Shown piece by piece: positions 4,476-18,742 of a stretch of 21,196 bases of DNA. Under the pieces are notes generated by a model that ran no database searches, had not been told where the DNA came from, and worked only from the letters and a program-made list of their open reading frames with translations. Position 1 is the stretch's first letter. Each line of letters opens with the position of its first letter. Source of the stretch: a virus; IMG/VR virus record IMGVR_UViG_3300043015_000506, positions 1 through 21,196 of that record. The stretch is one strand, 5' to 3'. Both the position numbers and the translations under genes were made by a program.

Positions 4476-5081
4476 TTAAATATCAAACCGTTCCTTGACC
4501 ATTGTCTTAAAACGATTTGGTTCAAACTCCAAGAAAGGTTTATACTTTCTGGATTTGTCTATTATATCAAAACTAACATGTTTGTCAACTATTTTCTCAC
4601 TCCAGTACGAAAATATATTCGCCATGAAAGCTAAAATAGTAAACGTCTCAAGACTAATCTTCTTTTGTAATAACAATGTCATCACAAGAGGATGTTGTCC
4701 ATCGACTGATATAAAGTTTCGCTTGTATTCATCATTAAGATGAGCAAGCTCGGATTTGAAGACATAACCTAATGATTCTATCTTTTTCCTCCAATTCATA
4801 TATCTGGCTTCGCCTTCGCTGTCAAGCAAATCGCGTACCCAGATGTTTTTATTTATTAAAAGATTACTTAAAATGAGTCCTTGAACATCATCTTTTTTCG
4901 CTAATTTTGCGAATGAATAGGCATCGTTTCGAGACATAAATGTTTCGTAATTTGCACGTACCTTTCCATTGTATTTAAAGTAATCGTAATTGTCCGTTGT
5001 AAAATGTTTTTTCAATGCTAAGAATTTAACATAAGCATTAAAACTATCATCACTTGCTAAAGTCTGTGATATCTTGTTCAT
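4476..5081 (-). CDS. 59: Helicase loader gp59
   Basis: Loads gp41 helicase onto gp32-coated fork DNA. This 201 aa all-helical protein resembles T4 gp59 in length and in segments such as YDYFKYNGKVRAN near residue 32 (T4 has a KYDVIKYNW stretch), the mid-protein LILSNLLINKNIWVRDL, and KKISLETFTILAFMANI near 139-155 (T4 NIISFETFILL). Its place between gp33 and gp32 is the T4 gene order, which strengthens the call. The ATG at 5081 lies inside the 3' end of the gp33 gene (32-bp overlap), with an AAGGA site very close to it. A consensus promoter for gp32 appears embedded near codons 165-174. Confidence 0.9.
   Translation of the reverse strand: MNKISQTLASDDSFNAYVKFLALKKHFTTDNYDYFKYNGKVRANYETFMSRNDAYSFAKLAKKDDVQGLILSNLLINKNIWVRDLLDSEGEARYMNWRKKIESLGYVFKSELAHLNDEYKRNFISVDGQHPLVMTLLLQKKISLETFTILAFMANIFSYWSEKIVDKHVSFDIIDKSRKYKPFLEFEPNRFKTMVKERFDI
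4561..4588 (-). promoter_or_regulatory. Candidate internal sigma-70 promoter for gp32
   Basis: The minus strand has TTGACA (4583-4588) and TATAAT (4561-4566) with a 16-bp spacer, inside the gp59 coding sequence. Both hexamers are perfect. Transcription would start near 4554 and read gp32 after a leader of roughly 115 nt. Being inside a gene, it could still be chance. Confidence 0.6.
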
Positions 5082-5325
5082 CTTCCTTCTTCACCATCTT
5101 TAAAGTAACTGCCTCAGTCCGAATCTTTTCTTTCAAGATAGAACTCTTCTTTACGATTTGAGCAATTGTTTCTATTTCAATTCCATTCTTCTCGGAGAAG
5201 TCGACTAAGGCGTCAATATATGGAACTCCTTTTGAAATATGTTTGCTTATTTCGTGATGGATTTTATCGGGTGTTAGAGCTACAACGGACATATCAGTTT
5301 TTTCCTTTGAATTCTTTTTTGTCAT
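5050..5325 (-). CDS. 33: Late transcription coactivator gp33
   Basis: T4 gp33 links RNA polymerase to the sliding clamp and, with gp55, opens late promoters. This 91 aa protein matches the T4 gp33 core: SKGVPYIDALVDFSEKNGIE (32-51) aligns with the T4 EFGMSYLEATTAFLEENSIP segment, followed by IAQIVKKSSILKEKIRTEA like T4 FIPSGIIEKIQSEA. The order gp33-gp59-gp32 is also as in T4. The basic N-terminus MTKKNSKEKTD precedes a second in-frame ATG at 5292. The near promoter (5337-5365) would start RNA only about 5 nt before the ATG at 5325, so proximal transcripts would be almost leaderless or use 5292. Transcripts from the far promoter carry AAGG (5331-5334) 5 nt before 5325. Confidence 0.85.
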   Translation of the reverse strand: MTKKNSKEKTDMSVVALTPDKIHHEISKHISKGVPYIDALVDFSEKNGIEIETIAQIVKKSSILKEKIRTEAVTLKMVKKEDEQDITDFSK

Positions 5326-5336
5326 GTATACCTTAT

Positions 5337-5365
5337 ATTATATACTAGTTAACTGCGTATGTCAA
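5337..5365 (-). promoter_or_regulatory. Consensus sigma-70 promoter, proximal, for gp33 operon
   Basis: Minus strand: TTGACA (5360-5365), 17-bp spacer, TATAAT (5337-5342). Both hexamers are perfect, preceded by AACTA as in other promoters of this window. The predicted start near 5330 is only about 5 nt from the gp33 ATG and downstream of its AAGG ribosome site. Confidence 0.85.
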
Positions 5366-5426
5366 TAGTTATTTTTGAAATGTATAATAAACCTGCTCAG
5401 CTGAAGTATTTCAACCGGACAAGTCT

Positions 5427-5455
5427 ATTATAACAAAGTTTTACTTAGATGTCAA
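5427..5455 (-). promoter_or_regulatory. Consensus sigma-70 promoter, distal, for gp33 operon
   Basis: Minus strand: TTGACA (5450-5455), 17-bp spacer, TATAAT (5427-5432). It lies 90 bp upstream of the proximal copy. The initially transcribed DNA holds TGAA-N4-TTCA (5402-5413) and the palindrome TCAGCTGA (5397-5404), either of which might be an operator. The 214-bp gap 5326-5539 otherwise holds only these signals. Confidence 0.85.
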
Positions 5456-5519
5456 TCTATTTATTAAGTTAACATGTGGACTTCGATTATGACCATTCAT
5501 GAGATTTATTCTTTGACAA

Positions 5520-5547
5520 AAGTATAACACCAAAAGTGTCTATACTT
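5520..5547 (-). terminator. Hairpin at the end of pcyX, probable terminator
   Basis: AAGTATA-ACAC and GTGT-TATACTT pair (11 bp, one bulged base at 5540) around the loop CAAAA. The hairpin includes the pcyX stop codon at 5540-5542. On the minus strand the stem is followed by a short T-rich run (CTTTTG). The run is weak, so termination may be partial. It separates the late bilin operon from the early replication promoters just downstream. Confidence 0.5.
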
Positions 5548-6235
5548 CTTCAAATAAAACATTCTCTACATATTGATTCTTGCGTTCTTCAGGTACACCC
5601 ATTGCGAGTATTGAAGAATGAAGCATCTTATTCATTTTCTGATTACGACAATATTTGTTCTGTGCTTCTTTTGTATTCAGACAATCTAATTTCTGATGAA
5701 CAGGATTTCCCATCTCTGAACAATAAAAAGTAACTAAGTTCAAAGCCATCTGACAAAGTTGGTCTGTTTCTAATCCTTCTCTTATTGAACCTGCGCCTAC
5801 AATATTTTCGGAAAAGATTTCTTTTGCCCAGTCAGGCATCTCTCTTGCTCTTGTCCAAGTTAGTTCTTCGGTTTCGTATTTAAACTTATCTAGGAATACA
5901 TGACCTCGGTCGTGAAGTGGAGAGTAATCGCAAAAGCAACCTGATATCTTTTTAGGATTAGCAACAATATCTAAACCAAAGATAGGAAGGTCAACATCAA
6001 ACTCAGGAAACACATTAATATGCATTAACCACAATTTGTTTTTACCTACAGGTTCAATTGTTTTTAAATGACATTTGCGAATAATGTCGTTTGACCAAAA
6101 GTGATCTTCCCAACCGTTTAAGTCTGCTGTGTGTTTAGGATTATCATAACGTTCCATATAGGAATCAAACACATTACAGATTTCCTCTGATAAATTTCTC
6201 AATCTATCAAAGAGAGGACTTTCAATTTTATTCAT
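5540..6235 (-). CDS. pcyX: PcyX-type ferredoxin-dependent bilin reductase
   Basis: Reduces biliverdin with electrons from ferredoxin. Phage PcyX is reported to make phycoerythrobilin although it is related to PcyA. The 231 aa protein has the family core: NGWEDHFW (40-47), IRKCHLK (52-58), WLMHINVFPEFDVDLPIFG (69-87), LDIVANPKKISGCFCDYSP (88-106). H72 and D89 are 17 apart and align with the PcyA catalytic pair His88/Asp105. The PcyA Glu76 position, in its HLE motif, is Lys58 here, allowing for a 2-residue insertion, which fits PcyX rather than true PcyA. The start is the ATG at 6235, which overlaps the heme oxygenase stop (ATGAATAA); a longer open frame to 6349 only shadows that gene. The two genes form a late operon. 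A ferredoxin from the host is presumably needed, as none is seen here. Confidence 0.88.
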   Translation of the reverse strand: MNKIESPLFDRLRNLSEEICNVFDSYMERYDNPKHTADLNGWEDHFWSNDIIRKCHLKTIEPVGKNKLWLMHINVFPEFDVDLPIFGLDIVANPKKISGCFCDYSPLHDRGHVFLDKFKYETEELTWTRAREMPDWAKEIFSENIVGAGSIREGLETDQLCQMALNLVTFYCSEMGNPVHQKLDCLNTKEAQNKYCRNQKMNKMLHSSILAMGVPEERKNQYVENVLFEEV

Positions 6236-6848
6236 TGTCTTCCCAACCGCCCATCTGTCTTGCCATCGCATAATTTTCTGGTTCGTAATCTTCTGCGTTG
6301 TTTCGATAGTTTTCCATGAGCTCGTGGAATAACCTTTCTGCATATTCAAAACATATCATTGCTTCGTCAGCCATTCCATCATGTAATAATTCTCTTACTT
6401 GTTTAATCAACTCTGCTCTGTTTTCAAATTCATACATAAGACCTGCGCCGGGAACATTTCTTTTAATGATTTGACCACCGTGAGCATCTCCAAAGTGTCT
6501 TACATACAAATGAGCAAGTAATGCTTCGTTATCACCATCTTCGAGAAGTTTATGAATATGTTTATTATATTCTATAACGGATTCAAAGTTTTCTTCAACT
6601 TCTTCTAAATCGTAAGTAGATTGTAATTCTGATAAATCTTCTTCAATTAAAGTTGACCTAAAGATAGGTTCTAATTCCATCGGTACTTCAACCGCTGATT
6701 CCAATACCATATAATTTTGTAATTGGGCGTGTAAATATTCTTGGTAAAGTTTAGGACTGATATTCCCAGAAAGTAACATATCGGCAAATTCAGTTCTTTC
6801 TGCGTTATCGTGGTGTTGCCTTGTTAGTTCTTTTAAATTGTTTGCCAT
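6228..6848 (-). CDS. ho1: Heme oxygenase (biliverdin-forming)
   Basis: Opens heme to biliverdin IX-alpha, CO and iron, using ferredoxin as electron donor. The 206 aa helical protein shows the proximal heme-ligand motif HxxAE (H13-D-N-A16-E17) and the distal glycine kink HFGDAHGGQ (118-126), equivalent to GDxxGGQ of known heme oxygenases. These two motifs make the call secure. GAGGAAAC gives a good ribosome site for the ATG at 6848. The stop overlaps the pcyX start by 8 nt, so product and consumer of biliverdin are made together. A perfect late box begins 40 nt upstream, so expression is expected late in infection. Phages with phycobilin genes usually carry such a pair, but a matching light-harvesting apparatus is absent from this window. 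Confidence 0.94.
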   Translation of the reverse strand: MANNLKELTRQHHDNAERTEFADMLLSGNISPKLYQEYLHAQLQNYMVLESAVEVPMELEPIFRSTLIEEDLSELQSTYDLEEVEENFESVIEYNKHIHKLLEDGDNEALLAHLYVRHFGDAHGGQIIKRNVPGAGLMYEFENRAELIKQVRELLHDGMADEAMICFEYAERLFHELMENYRNNAEDYEPENYAMARQMGGWEDNE

Positions 6849-6887: not shown

Positions 6888-6895
6888 TATTTATA
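6888..6895 (-). promoter_or_regulatory. Late promoter TATAAATA for heme oxygenase-pcyX
   Basis: Exact TATAAATA on the minus strand, 39 nt before the heme oxygenase ATG. It overlaps the opposite-strand box at 6892-6899 by four bases, forming the palindrome TATTTATAAATA. Confidence 0.8.
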
Positions 6896-6899
6896 AATA
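6892..6899 (+). promoter_or_regulatory. Late promoter TATAAATA for the lipase operon
   Basis: Exact TATAAATA on the plus strand, 40 nt before the lipase ATG at 6940. It shares bases TATA with the divergent box, so the two promoters probably cannot be opened on the same molecule at once. Confidence 0.8.
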
Positions 6900-6939: not shown

Positions 6940-7686
6940 ATGAAAAATAAAGTACAATTTGATGATGTAAAAAGTGAAGCTATTAAAAAAGCAGAAATGG
7001 CAAAAATTGCATATGAAGATGGTAAGGAAGCCAAACCATTATTCAAAGCATTAGGTTATACCGGTCATAAATTTATTGATAAAGACGGCGCACAAGCTCA
7101 TTGTGTTTGGAATAAAGAAGAATTCGTTCTATGTTGCCGCGGTACTGAACCTACAGAACTCAACGACCTTAAAGCAGATTTAAATATTTGGCCTGATAAG
7201 GCTCAAGTTGGTGGTTGGGTACATAACGGTTTCCAAAACGAAGTTGACGATATCTGGGAAGACGTTATGAAAGAATTTGGAAAACATTCAGATAAAAAGA
7301 TTTCAATTTGTGGACATTCATTAGGTGGAGCAATGGCAACAATTGCTGCTTCAAGATTAAAAGTACACAAACCTGTTCTATATACATTTGGATCACCAAG
7401 AGTTGGTAATGCCGAGTTTGTAAAGAACATGTCAAGTGTTGAACATTATCGTTTTGTTAATAACAATGATTTAGTTACAGTCATACCACCTTGGGTTATG
7501 GGTTACCGTCATCACGGTACAGTTATGTATTTTAACTATAACGGTATTATCAAGAACCTTGCTTGGTGGAGAAAGTTGAAAGATAAACTACGAGGTATTG
7601 TGACTTCGTGGATTAATCTAAAGCCTTTTGACGGCCTTGCAGACCACTCAATGGATAACTATACAAAATATACTAAGGACAACTAA
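6940..7686 (+). CDS. Class 3 lipase (alpha/beta hydrolase)
   Basis: Serine hydrolase likely to cleave acyl esters of lipids, with a possible role in damaging host membrane at lysis. The 248 aa protein has the nucleophile elbow GHSLGGAMA (Ser127), the TFGSPRVGN block (149-157), RFVNNNDLVTVIPP with the likely catalytic Asp177, and a C-terminal DHSM with the likely catalytic His236. The oxyanion-region CRGTE (66-70) is also typical of lipase_3. There is no signal peptide. A TTG at 6901 is in frame but would lie at the transcript start, whereas GGGAGAA precedes the ATG at 6940 by 4-5 nt, so 6940 is chosen. It is the first gene of a late operon with small membrane proteins (TAATG coupling to the next gene). 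Confidence 0.92.
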   Translation: MKNKVQFDDVKSEAIKKAEMAKIAYEDGKEAKPLFKALGYTGHKFIDKDGAQAHCVWNKEEFVLCCRGTEPTELNDLKADLNIWPDKAQVGGWVHNGFQNEVDDIWEDVMKEFGKHSDKKISICGHSLGGAMATIAASRLKVHKPVLYTFGSPRVGNAEFVKNMSSVEHYRFVNNNDLVTVIPPWVMGYRHHGTVMYFNYNGIIKNLAWWRKLKDKLRGIVTSWINLKPFDGLADHSMDNYTKYTKDN

Positions 7687-8054
7687 TGGACATTTTAGAG
7701 AGGCTATTATCAGATACCTTATGGATTTATACAGCAATCCTTGGTTCAATCGCAGGCGCAGGATTCTTGTTTTGGTTTAAAGATACAAGAATGGCAACTT
7801 GGGCGGTAGCAAAATTTGACGGTATTTTAGAATATCTTGTAATTCGTTGGGGTTGGACTTGGTTACAAAATGACCCTGAGGCTTGGAGAAAAAAGTATCC
7901 TCGTATTACTGGAAAAATTGATGAGCTTGAAGATAGAATAGAAATTCTTGAAGTAGATTCACATCCTCCTGTTGCTCCTGGTGGAACAACTGAGCTTAAA
8001 TCGTTGATTGATGATATCAATAAAAGATTAGATAATCTTGAAAAGAAAAAGTAA
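7686..8054 (+). CDS. Membrane-anchored coiled-coil phage protein, unknown function
   Basis: This 122 aa protein has one N-terminal membrane segment (LWIYTAILGSIAGAGFLFWF, residues 12-31), a Trp-rich region (VIRWGWTWLQNDPEAWRKKYP, about 52-72), a predicted coiled coil (ITGKIDELEDRIEILE), a Pro/Gly linker and a second heptad stretch at the end (IDDINKRLDNLEKKK). It starts in the lipase stop codon (TAATG) and ends the same way into the next gene, so the three are translationally coupled. I recognise it as a type recurring in marine T4-like phages but know no function. With the lipase next to it, a role in lysis or at the membrane is possible; this is inference. Confidence 0.85.
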   Translation: MDILERLLSDTLWIYTAILGSIAGAGFLFWFKDTRMATWAVAKFDGILEYLVIRWGWTWLQNDPEAWRKKYPRITGKIDELEDRIEILEVDSHPPVAPGGTTELKSLIDDINKRLDNLEKKK

Positions 8055-8368
8055 TGGAACTAACCGATGCAGCAATATCTAAAGCAATTGAAAAAACGTC
8101 AGGATCGCAACCTAGCTATATTAGGTTGGGTGTCACTGCTGGTGGGTGTGTTGGGTTTGAGTATATTATTGAATATGCTAATAAAATTAATAATGATGAT
8201 ATTGTAACTGATTACGGAAAGTTTAAGATAGTCATAGATAAGTTGTCCGAGTCGTATCTTAAAGATGCAACATTGGATTGGATGAAGGAAGGATTGAACG
8301 AATCGTTTAGAATTATCAATCCAAACGAAACCGCTTCTTGCGGTTGTGGAGTATCAATAGGATTTTAA
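8054..8368 (+). CDS. A-type iron-sulfur carrier (IscA/ErpA/HesB family)
   Basis: Carries or assembles Fe-S clusters for delivery to apo-proteins. The 104 aa protein has the complete ligand set of the family: Cys32 in TAGGCVG and Cys96-x-Cys98 in SCGCG near the C-terminus. The spacing of 64 and 2 residues is the same as C35, C99 and C101 in E. coli IscA. Length and the C-terminal CGCGVSIGF-type end are normal. It is coupled by TAATG to the membrane protein upstream. Such genes are known in marine phages. The likely client is unknown. Ferredoxin, the electron donor for the divergently encoded heme oxygenase and PcyX, is an attractive guess. Confidence 0.92.
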   Translation: MELTDAAISKAIEKTSGSQPSYIRLGVTAGGCVGFEYIIEYANKINNDDIVTDYGKFKIVIDKLSESYLKDATLDWMKEGLNESFRIINPNETASCGCGVSIGF

Positions 8369-8550: not shown

Positions 8551-8715
8551 ATGTTAGATTTTATTAAAGATAGATTAGTCGAAAGAACTTCATTAGACGG
8601 TGGCGTACTAATCGCAATATGCGGGTCTATAATTTTATTCGGTGGTATTGTAAAACTTGCAGCCTGGGTTGGTCTAGGTTGGGGAGTATATACTTTAGTT
8701 AAAGGCGAAAAATAA
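8551..8715 (+). CDS. Small Gly-rich membrane protein
   Basis: 54 aa with a strong ribosome site (AAGGAG, then an AAAAAT spacer). One long hydrophobic, Gly-rich stretch (about residues 18-50: GVLIAICGSIILFGG, VKLAAWVGLGWGVYTLV) could form one or two membrane passes. It ends in KGEK*, with its stop overlapping the start of the EF-hand membrane protein (TAATG). Size and hydrophobicity would suit a holin-like or accessory membrane role, but nothing specific proves this. Confidence 0.7.
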   Translation: MLDFIKDRLVERTSLDGGVLIAICGSIILFGGIVKLAAWVGLGWGVYTLVKGEK

Positions 8716-9038
8716 TGGAAGAAGAACTTAAAGCAAGCGGACATCATCCTGCTGATACAAATGGAGACGGTAAAGTTTCCAAAGTCGAAGAGGCAATGTA
8801 TTTAGAGTTTAAGAGAAAAGAACTCGAAGACCAGGATGCAATGAGAGATGCACAACGTAGTATGGCATGGTTCTCATTATATGGAATGTTAGCATATCCT
8901 GTTTTAGTAATCGGATCCAATGTGGTCGGTTATGAAAAGGCAGCTGATATCTTGGGCGATATGGCAGGAGTATATTTTATTGCTGTTGCTGGTATTGTTG
9001 CTGCATTCTTTGGTGCACAAGCTTGGACTAAAAAGTAA
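8715..9038 (+). CDS. Membrane protein with a single EF-hand calcium loop
   Basis: 107 aa. The N-terminus has a canonical 12-residue EF-hand loop: D14-x-N16-x-D18-G19-K20-x-S22-x-x-E25. A charged helix follows (about 26-48), then two hydrophobic segments (MAWFSLYGMLAYPVLVIGSNVV and AGVYFIAVAGIVAAFFGAQAW). So a soluble Ca2+-binding head sits on two membrane passes. It is the last gene of the late lipase operon and ends at a strong terminator. Function is unknown. With the lipase (some are calcium-dependent) and the small membrane proteins it could belong to a lysis or membrane-remodelling set; this is inference. Confidence 0.85.
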   Translation: MEEELKASGHHPADTNGDGKVSKVEEAMYLEFKRKELEDQDAMRDAQRSMAWFSLYGMLAYPVLVIGSNVVGYEKAADILGDMAGVYFIAVAGIVAAFFGAQAWTKK

Positions 9039-16611: not shown

Positions 16612-18441
16612 GTGGCAACGAACACTGAACAATTTAGAATACTTACGGCACGACAGCATGTTCGTGAACGTATCGGTATGTACATGGGTTCAAGTTCTCA
16701 GGAAGACATCGAAAGATTTGTTCTTGGAGAATGGAAGAAAGCAAAGTATGTACCTGCACTATCAAAGATGGTTGACGAAATTCTTGATAATGCAATTGAC
16801 GAAGCAATTCGTACTAATTTTAAATACGCAAATAAAATCAATGTAAGCATTCGCGGTAATTCTATTACAGTGACAGATAACGGTCGCGGTATTCCTCAAG
16901 ATAAAATATTTGACGAAACAAGTAAAGAAGAACTTTTACGACCTGTTGCTGCATGGACAAGAGTTAATGCAGGTACCTCATTTGATGATGAACGAGTTAC
17001 GATTGGAACTAACGGTGTCGGCTCTGCTGCTACGAACTTCCTATCGGAATCTTTCTCAGGTAAAACTTGGTCTAATAAAAAATACATACAAGTTGATTGT
17101 AAAGATGGTGCTGATACATTAAAAATTAAAACAGGCGATAGAGCAGGTCATGGTACCGAAGTAACCTTTACTCCTGACTTTAGTTTATTTGAGGTTGATA
17201 GTTTAGAAGAACTTGATACGATTACATTAATTGAAGATCGTCTTATCAGTTTACAAATGGCTTTCCCAGAAATCCAATTTAGCTTTGATAAGAAAAGAGT
17301 TAAAGTAAAAGACATTAAACAGTATGCTGCTTTATTCAGTGATACTACAATTCTTGAGAAGACTGATAATCTGTCATACTTTATTGCACCTTCAGAGGAT
17401 GGATTTAGAACGAATAGTTTTATAAATGGTGTTAACACAAGACAAGGTGGTACTTATGTAGATGTCTTTATGAACGCTATTATAGATGAACTCGTTGTTA
17501 AAATTAAAAGACGTCATAAAGTCGAAGTATTAAAAACTACAATTAAGAGTGGTTTAACCTTTGTGATGTTTGCTAGGAACTTTACGAATCCTAAATTTGA
17601 TTCTCAAACAAAAGAAAGGTTAACGAATCCTTGGGGAGAAATCAAATCCCACATGGAATCTTGCGGTGTTCGTGATGGTGCTTGGCTTGCTCAAAAGATT
17701 TTAAATACACCTGATATTATTGACCCAATTATTGAGGCGCAGTTAGCAAAGAAACTTGCTGCAGATAAAAGAGCTGCTACATTGGCTCAAAAGAAACTCC
17801 GTAAGGTTAAGGTTGCTAAACATATATCAGCAAATAAAGATGATGCAACATTAAAGATTGTGGAAGGTGATTCTGCGATGGGATTCTTATTAAAGGTTCG
17901 CGACCCTGATAAGGTTGGAGCATTTCCACTCCGTGGTGTTATTATGAATACCTGGGATATGAAACCTGCTGAGGTATTAAAGAACAAAGAACTATCTGAA
18001 TTGGTTGCTGTATTAGGATTGGATATTAACGATCCTAATTCTGTTGACAATATGTCTTATCAACATATCGCAACATTAACTGATGCTGACCATGATGGTA
18101 TTGGACATATCAGTCCATTGCTGATTGCGTTCTTTTACAAATTTTGGCCTCGTCTGTTAACTGAACAGAGAGTAATGATTACGAGAACACCTATTATGAT
18201 TAGTTCAAAAGGTGATGAAGTTGAATGGTTCTATACTTATGAAGAAGCAAGTTCGTTTAAGAATAAGCAATCTACATATAAGCACAGATACATTAAAGGT
18301 CTAGGTTCATTAACCGAAGATGAGTATAGTACTATTATTAATTGTCCGAAGTATGATGTAGTCACAGTTGATGATGCATCAGTATTTCAAATGATGTTTG
18401 GTAAGGACAGCAATTTAAGAAAGGAGTATATGTTTGGATAA
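16612..18441 (+). CDS. 39: DNA topoisomerase II large subunit (gp39-gp60 in one chain)
   Basis: ATPase and TOPRIM subunit of the phage type II topoisomerase, used in replication fork work. 609 aa. GHKL ATPase motifs: EILDNAIDEA (56-65), TVTDNGRGIP (87-96), GTNGVGSAATNFLS (132-145). TOPRIM motifs: VEGDSAMG (417-424) and TLTDADHDGIGHI (488-500), with IKGLGSLTEDE near the end. In T4 these parts are split between gp39 and gp60; here one chain holds both. The start is GTG at 16612 with GGAGA 7 nt before it; earlier in-frame codons fall inside the promoter. It heads an operon with the gp52-like subunit. Confidence 0.95.
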   Translation: MATNTEQFRILTARQHVRERIGMYMGSSSQEDIERFVLGEWKKAKYVPALSKMVDEILDNAIDEAIRTNFKYANKINVSIRGNSITVTDNGRGIPQDKIFDETSKEELLRPVAAWTRVNAGTSFDDERVTIGTNGVGSAATNFLSESFSGKTWSNKKYIQVDCKDGADTLKIKTGDRAGHGTEVTFTPDFSLFEVDSLEELDTITLIEDRLISLQMAFPEIQFSFDKKRVKVKDIKQYAALFSDTTILEKTDNLSYFIAPSEDGFRTNSFINGVNTRQGGTYVDVFMNAIIDELVVKIKRRHKVEVLKTTIKSGLTFVMFARNFTNPKFDSQTKERLTNPWGEIKSHMESCGVRDGAWLAQKILNTPDIIDPIIEAQLAKKLAADKRAATLAQKKLRKVKVAKHISANKDDATLKIVEGDSAMGFLLKVRDPDKVGAFPLRGVIMNTWDMKPAEVLKNKELSELVAVLGLDINDPNSVDNMSYQHIATLTDADHDGIGHISPLLIAFFYKFWPRLLTEQRVMITRTPIMISSKGDEVEWFYTYEEASSFKNKQSTYKHRYIKGLGSLTEDEYSTIINCPKYDVVTVDDASVFQMMFGKDSNLRKEYMFG

Positions 18442-18742
18442 TCTTTGCTTTGATTGTGGTCTCTGTTGTAATGGTACACTATTTGATAAAGTTGACATAC
18501 CAGGAGAAGATGATTTGTTATTACCTTGTGTTAACCTAACATCAACTAACAAATGTGCAATATACGAAAACAGACCAAAGCCTTGTCAAGATTATGTATG
18601 TATAATGTTACACAACTATACAGTAGGTAAAATGACAAAGGAAAATGCGTTACGATTAATTGATGATGTAAAATCTGGAGTCGTAACAAAACAAGAATTT
18701 AAAAGAGTGGATAACAACAAGATTATAGGTAATTATTTATGA
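18434..18742 (+). CDS. YkgJ-like Cys-cluster protein
   Basis: 102 aa with eight Cys: C5-x2-C8-x2-C11-C12 at the N-terminus (CFDCGLCC), then C32, C41, C51 and C56 (CAIYENRPKPCQDYVC). This pattern fits the YkgJ/UPF0153 family, thought to bind zinc or iron. No activity is firmly known. TTG start at 18434 with AAGGAG (18421-18426) 7 nt before it, overlapping the end of the topoisomerase gene. The end overlaps the next start (ATGA). Lying between the two topoisomerase subunits, it is made with them; a function in that enzyme is only a guess. Confidence 0.85.
   Translation: MDNLCFDCGLCCNGTLFDKVDIPGEDDLLLPCVNLTSTNKCAIYENRPKPCQDYVCIMLHNYTVGKMTKENALRLIDDVKSGVVTKQEFKRVDNNKIIGNYL

Follow-up and report, generated by a model that had tools for sequence, protein, structure and literature searches.

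Why a T4-like phage should carry genes that would break heme open and reduce the resulting bilin, and at which stage of infection they would be used, is the question raised by this locus; the reason why phages carry heme oxygenase and a bilin reductase with a heme-precursor gene was described as 'still enigmatic' in the text of PMC11480375. The window analysed here, a 21,196-base record of an uncultured virus, holds a heme oxygenase (HO) and a bilin reductase (FDBR), both on the minus strand. They probably constitute a heme-degrading auxiliary operon of an uncultured family of aquatic T4-superfamily phages, transcribed late from one half of a two-way late palindrome. The features concerned are the following:

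6228..6848, minus strand: heme oxygenase (HO), 206 aa; PF01126 Heme_oxygenase, E 1.3e-20; proximal motif HDNAE, distal motif GDAHGGQ
5540..6235 (ATG 6235), minus strand: FDBR of a 'Lys clade', 231 aa, with Lys58; PF05996 Fe_bilin_red, E 5.6e-18
6888..6899, both strands: palindrome TATTTATAAATA, made up of two T4-type late boxes that overlap and point in opposite directions, recognised by sequence and conservation
6940..7686, plus strand: class-3 lipase, gene 1 of the divergent operon, ATG at 6940; PF01764, E 1.8e-23
7686..8054, plus strand: membrane/coiled-coil protein of the divergent operon; from the ORF list, no family above cut-off, PHROG matches weak
8054..8368, plus strand: A-type Fe-S carrier (Fe-S_biosyn), gene 3 of the divergent operon; PF01521, E 3.6e-13
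5427..5455, minus strand: sigma-70 promoter-like site TTGACA-17-TATAAT before gp33, 12/12, with TG ahead of the second hexamer
5337..5365, minus strand: second 12/12 sigma-70 promoter-like site before gp33
5050..5325, minus strand: gp33, late-transcription coactivator; PF16805, E 3.6e-12; phrog_254, E 7.6e-13

The initial annotation had described a heme oxygenase with HxxAE and GDAHGGQ motifs coupled to the reductase by an 8-nt overlap, and the open reading frames, the Pfam matches and the motifs HDNAE and GDAHGGQ bear this out, the FDBR start and the HO stop overlapping at 6228-6235. Its assignment to a T4-like phage with its own gp33 and topoisomerase is likewise correct, as gp33 (PF16805) and topoisomerase II genes (at 16.6-20.1 kb) are found in the window. 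Downstream of FDBR, the minus strand continues with gp33, gp59 (PF08993), gp32, a small gene, UvsX and gp41. The operon had been placed between the T4 replication core and a lipase operon; the neighbours are as claimed, although the arrangement was understated, since the same palindrome seems to serve as promoter for the lipase operon too. Hints of the host point in different directions: UvsX is closest to that of a Synechococcus elongatus phage and of Sinorhizobium phages (among the 12 best listed of 2405 records), and the 8 best-listed matches of the topoisomerase all belong to Vibrio phages. Between the genes for both topoisomerase II subunits (window 18434-18742) lies a small Cys-rich protein with CxxCxxCC near its start, which weakly matches PHROGs of unknown function. 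A 107-aa protein at window 8715-9038, present in many related loci, contains the motif DTNGDGKVS, which resembles an EF-hand, and seems to span the membrane twice; by its look it could be holin-like.

When viral contigs were scanned for the reductase, 75 loci were obtained. The gene next after the cassette is gp33 in 74 of them, the remaining one (L041) ending too early, and HO is present in 66, the other 9 starting near or within the reductase. A second scan was run with a divergent clade member as query and the best 80 of its 127 relatives were kept, many contigs being duplicated from the first; for palindrome and promoter counts, 115 rows were reduced to 28 representatives at 90% HO DNA identity. 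In all compared rows with both genes, HO and FDBR touch or overlap, and the length of the overlap varies from 1 to 29 nt depending on automated start choice.

The perfect late box that had been noticed before HO is indeed there, and it is part of a larger element. TATTTATAAATA is a 12-bp palindrome in which two copies of TATAAATA overlap head to head, one per direction: the first occupies 6888-6895 of the minus strand and begins 47 nt ahead of the HO ATG, and the second lies on the plus strand at 6892-6899, facing the lipase. The element agrees with a T4-type late promoter in having the exact TATAAATA, no -35 element and a position near a start codon. Concerning the late-transcription factors, gp33 is encoded in the window, and gp55 and gp45 were seen only in a related 89 kb contig. 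The number of octamers was rejected as evidence, since it stands at chance level: the window holds 3 copies of TATAAATA against 2.74 expected, with no enrichment, and 6 of WATAAATA against 6.33 expected. Despite this, position and conservation argue for a late box above chance. In the 89 kb contig, 12 of the 14 octamer sites lie 8-100 nt before a start, whereas the 55 other arrangements of these letters average 2.5 and never exceed 9; the same count gives 6/8 in a 50 kb and 5/6 in a 43 kb contig, ranking top in both, and 2/3 in the window alone, where it is tied with the best other letter orders.

Regarding conservation, the whole palindrome occurs once each in contigs of 89, 50, 43 and 21 kb, the last being the window, with about 0.1 per 100 kb expected from independent letters, and it was found in 0 of 80 canonical PcyX loci. 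Upstream of HO, it is kept in 60 of 61 rows when the window is counted with the first set, the exception being L022. Among the 28 representatives, 24 carry the 12-mer, two (L289 and L293) a 14-bp palindrome, TATTTATATAAATA, with both octamers intact, one (L022) the divergent octamer only and one (L284) none; by row, the same four states account for 107, 5, 2 and 1 of 115, some contigs being counted twice. The columns flanking the 12-mer in the 24 loci are far less conserved, mostly below 1 bit, those of the 12-mer itself having 2 bits by row selection. Each half is about as far from a start codon as a promoter would be: the distance from box to HO start is 44-63 nt in the 24 representatives with the 12-mer, and that from box to the start of the divergent gene is 36-57 nt in 20 of 27, an earlier TTG having been chosen automatically in the other 7. 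On the far side of the palindrome the neighbouring gene varies, coding for a lipase or for small coiled-coil or membrane proteins, while the palindrome itself is retained. A leader hairpin, as an RNA element between box and HO, was also considered in L284, L289 and L293 and rejected, the folding energy being no better than that of shuffles (z of -0.03, 0.61 and -0.30, respectively).

A perfect palindrome conserved as one block is also what the binding site of a dimeric regulator would look like, with no promoters involved. We consider this explanation very improbable, since each half is an exact T4 late octamer and single octamers precede other genes in the same phages. Moreover, the spacing between the halves shifts and the octamers do not: in L289 and L293 the overlap shrinks from 4 to 2 nt with both octamers still perfect, which argues for two octamers rather than one operator. 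Discounting the palindrome would, in addition, leave the HO operon without a recognised promoter. A 12-bp two-way late promoter, if real, would constitute a compact regulatory part.

Octamers elsewhere in these phages accompany several other genes. In the 89 kb contig, a late box stands directly behind a phage lysozyme gene and precedes a small gene together with a pair of Rz-like spanins, whose function is a late one (L226:14420-16086), and the order of lysozyme, box, small gene and spanins recurs, by sequence likeness, in a 37.6 kb contig (L299:6267-7811). A 593-aa cytidyltransferase-like protein with a DUF5824 tail also lies behind TATAAATA (L226:4838-6619). Separately, L226:9400-10851 encodes a 483-aa protein of the ATP-grasp (RimK-like) kind whose tail resembles a zinc protease. 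An attempt to tie the box to capsid genes did not succeed: no gp23 was found in 16 contigs of the clade, the search controls also matching nowhere, and when 18 Mosig proteins were compared with clade contigs, HO, PcyX and a single 2OG oxygenase were the only ones to match.

The promoters of the neighbouring operon present a clear contrast. The strongest sigma-70 match in the 150 nt preceding HO scores 8 or 9 of 12 positions in 28/28 representatives, whereas the last 250 nt before gp33 hold a 12/12 site in 26/28 (with a spacer of 17, or 18 in L289), an 11/12 site in one and none in L284, where the gap measures 39 nt. Within HO-FDBR itself, sigma-70 matches reach 10/12. Sites of 11-12/12 number 36 in the 89 kb contig, 34 of them perfect, compared with 4.7 in 10 shuffles; consensus promoters thus mark many operons of these phages, and the pigment operon lacks such a mark. 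Considering the conserved palindrome, the lack of a strong sigma-70 match before HO and the 12/12 sites before gp33, late control of the pigment operon appears well supported by sequence, and the late timing that had been proposed from the box alone now finds support beyond the original claim. As counter-evidence, L284 has neither the box nor a gp33 promoter in its short gap, and L022 has the divergent box only. With a conserved late box and perfect early promoters one gene away from each other, part of the cassette's purpose becomes a question of timing.

The two kinds of promoter are not strictly separated everywhere. Divergent from HO, sigma-70 matches of 11/12 occur in 3 of the 27 loci scored, and the divergent operon may not be purely late. 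In addition, before some genes TATAAATA is only a few bases away from a perfect sigma-70 site (L299:7945-7985, L299:8502-8543 and L226:16120-16160), which suggests promoters used both early and late; therefore, the box alone does not mean late-only expression. The 34 perfect TTGACA-TATAAT sites of the 89 kb contig (G003; L224-L227, L060) are, as early-type promoters, unusually strict. A terminator-like site was not found between the late-box operon and gp33 (window 5326-5540), and late read-through from HO-FDBR could raise gp33, itself a late coactivator.

We hypothesize that HO cleaves the heme ring, yielding biliverdin, CO and iron, and that FDBR then reduces biliverdin, possibly using ferredoxin electrons. 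One half of the palindrome would serve for late transcription of the pair by the host RNA polymerase together with gp55, gp33 and the gp45 clamp, and the other half would drive the divergent operon, usually including the A-type Fe-S carrier. The adjacent replication operon has its own perfect sigma-70 promoter sites, of early type, so that the two programmes would be kept separate. A phage ferredoxin (PF00111) was found above cut-off in 0 of 16 related contigs, which are possible fragments; one match below threshold contains stops.

Both enzymes are recognised with ample scores. HO reaches 74.5 bits with PF01126 (cut-off 23), and HxxAE and GDxHGG are present in 116/116 related rows, the precise distal motif being GD[AM]HGG in all 116 (some contigs counted twice). 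The HO of the clade is 35-41% identical to that of Mosig, and in the canonical-PcyX loci the distal motif is GDLSGG in 57/67; GD[AM]HGG thus appears to be a sequence mark of the clade's own HO. FDBR scores 65.9 bits with PF05996 (cut-off 31), its best PDB sequence match is the PcyX 5owg (E 1.1e-33), and its AlphaFold model (pLDDT 90.8) has the PcyA/PcyX fold, with structural matches to PcyA (TM 0.80 by query length), PcyX, PebA, PebB and phytochromobilin synthase. Its identity is 28-33% to known PcyX and 21-26% to PcyA.

The active site sets this reductase apart. At the positions of PcyX Asp55, His69 and Asp86, the last two numbers being counted on from Asp55 in the 5owg chain, 104 deduplicated rows show K/H/D in 32/32 sequences of this clade, D/H/D in 25/25 PcyX and E/H/D in 44/44 PcyA. 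The catalytic His and Asp (equivalents of PcyA His88 and Asp105) are therefore kept in all 32 clade rows, and Lys stands both for Asp55, described as the PcyX-specific catalytic residue in PMC11480375, and for Glu76, which according to PMC10151467 is PcyA-specific and required for 18-vinyl reduction. A wider count, with rows reaching the protein start only, gave Lys in 71/71. For the tree, 278 rows were reduced to 182 different ones and these to 104 at 92% identity, the canonical PcyX comparison set being the best 80 of 194 loci and PcyX being the sole representative of the AX clade of PMC10151467. The reductase forms a clade by itself (support 98/91), which adjoins PcyX (100/99), with the Peb enzymes as far rows. 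Both clades sit on a shared branch of 5.78 changes per column, and their pairing could partly owe to the length of that branch. Alphaproteobacterial PcyA is absent from the tree: a search yielded 0 in 397 further genomes of that group, no plasmid, and none by title among 53 loci. The label 'PcyX-type' given by the initial annotation is therefore only partly right, the reductase being a probable sister of known PcyX rather than PcyX proper, given the separate clade, an identity of about 30% and the Lys that replaces the PcyX-specific Asp55. A tree placing the reductase outside PcyX, named at the time as the outcome that would speak against this label, is what is observed if PcyX means the crown of known sequences, and not if it means PcyX plus its sister clade.

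Since Lys replaces the catalytic acid of the relatives and the clade is separate, the product of the predicted reductase cannot be assumed. An ordinary PcyX operon, whose reductase makes phycoerythrobilin like EBK42635 or the Mosig-type PcyX as a pigment supply for a photosynthetic or light-sensing host, would agree with the top PDB match to 5owg, with the sister position of the clade and with the retained hemO partner. Nevertheless, we regard it as doubtful, because identity to PcyX is just 28-33%, because Lys occupies the Asp position in every clade row, and because the freshwater viral enzyme CB_2, likewise without Asp55, gave PCB rather than PEB according to PMC11480375. It is also weakened by the lack of a phycobilisome protein: PF00502 was found in 0 of 16 larger related contigs, all possibly fragments, in agreement with the absence of phycobiliprotein reported for the window at the outset. 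An invariant Lys at a position linked with regiospecificity in PcyA and PcyX (as described in PMC10151467 and PMC11480375) would offer a natural test of how these enzymes choose a double bond.

If not pigment, the gain could be iron. Late heme turnover with iron recovery is our slightly favoured guess of the purpose, with some reduced bilin as a product, and it is favoured because 16 of the 20 representatives with at least 1500 nt of sequence there have an A-type Fe-S carrier on the divergent strand. In its complete form, this explanation holds that HO frees iron late, that the co-controlled carrier takes it up, for Fe-S enzymes of the phage or for virion iron, and that FDBR merely clears biliverdin. 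This form is possible and we advance it tentatively. It is in line with the finding that, in the 89 kb contig, a gene for a NifU-like Fe-S scaffold (L227:7911-8368) lies behind TATAAATA, at only 14 nt, too close for an ordinary leader, and a role of iron was discussed in PMC11480375; but the evidence is of linkage only, the carrier is missing in 4 of the 20, and nothing known links the operon's lipase and membrane proteins with iron. The late box would equally suit a shutdown of the host in which the phage would break down respiratory heme or release CO ahead of lysis. This we consider improbable, since a bilin reductase would then be superfluous and three related contigs carry a heme-precursor gene, itself with a late box within reach.

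That precursor gene encodes 5-aminolevulinate synthase (valaS) and was found in 3 of the 16 larger related contigs, two matches being above cut-off and one being cut by the contig end. In all three it lies directly behind nrdB (by Pfam in one, by sequence likeness in two), in a ribonucleotide-reductase run 29-33 kb from the reductase. A perfect sigma-70 site occurs at or near the head of this run in 3/3, about 5 kb upstream (89 kb contig at 69682, the gene being at 74502; 50 kb contig at 5929; 37.6 kb contig at 28502). A copy of TATAAATA is also within reach in 3/3, at 69119 in the 89 kb contig (before the gene that precedes the run), at 2352 in the 50 kb contig (between nrdA and the gene before nrdB) and at 28536 in the 37.6 kb contig (where the run begins). 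With both kinds of site in reach, 5-aminolevulinate synthase looks early and possibly also late, and HO-FDBR looks late only; the octamers near valaS thus weaken a clean scheme in which heme is made early and broken late. A more far-reaching proposal would join these observations: a new specificity class of FDBR, with Lys for the catalytic acid, whose product would be neither PCB nor PEB but another bilin, or else a mixture, and a fused late promoter that works both ways and so ties the breakdown of heme to the assembly of Fe-S clusters, in a timed heme programme with breakdown held to late and phage 5-aminolevulinate synthase possible from early on. Taken as a whole, we rate this proposal as unlikely.

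Operons of hemO and pcyX in phages are already known. As far as the literature examined shows, the Lys clade, the two-way late palindrome and the early/late contrast with gp33 are new, and the clade may already stand in the tree of PMC11480375. The nearest known systems are the hemO-pcyX marine myophages (PcyX EBK42635, 5owg; Pelagibacter phage Mosig EXVC030M), which have the same two genes in the same order, and in Mosig the cassette also overlaps and sits among late-type genes. The neck gene gp13 is on the same stretch in 74 of 81 published-type PcyX loci (Mosig and the best 80 of 194), and this structural-gene context was counted as support for the late reading. In those phages the cassette lies at the neck genes gp13/gp14, whereas here it lies beside gp33; they have TATAAATA within the upstream 150 nt in just 3 of 62, whereas this clade has its own palindromic box; and their PcyX has Asp55 and their HO mostly GDLSGG, in contrast to Lys and GD[AM]HGG here. 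With the valaS-hemO-pcyA/X phages of PMC11480375, the related contigs share the 5-aminolevulinate synthase, found in 3 of 16, like the 'broken cassette' of that paper; here, however, valaS is 29-33 kb away from HO-FDBR and behind nrdB, and the main text of PMC11480375 contains neither nrd, ribonucleotide nor gp32, and the four occurrences of 'promoter' listed from it refer to cloning. The PcyA of cyanobacteria and cyanophages has the same FDBR fold and the equivalents of His88 and Asp105; the clade differs from it by Lys at the Glu76 equivalent and by an identity of 21-26%. Finally, the box is the octamer of the T4 late promoter (TATAAATA, at -13 to -6; PMC2988020, PMC1524935), likewise without a -35 element, with gp33 in the window and gp55 and gp45 in a relative. 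Titles and abstract starts among the T4 late-promoter literature matches listed name no shared palindromic late promoter, and the consulted parts of PMC2988020 and PMC1524935 describe late transcripts of either polarity and no such shared promoter, whereas in these phages two boxes are fused head to head within 12 bp.
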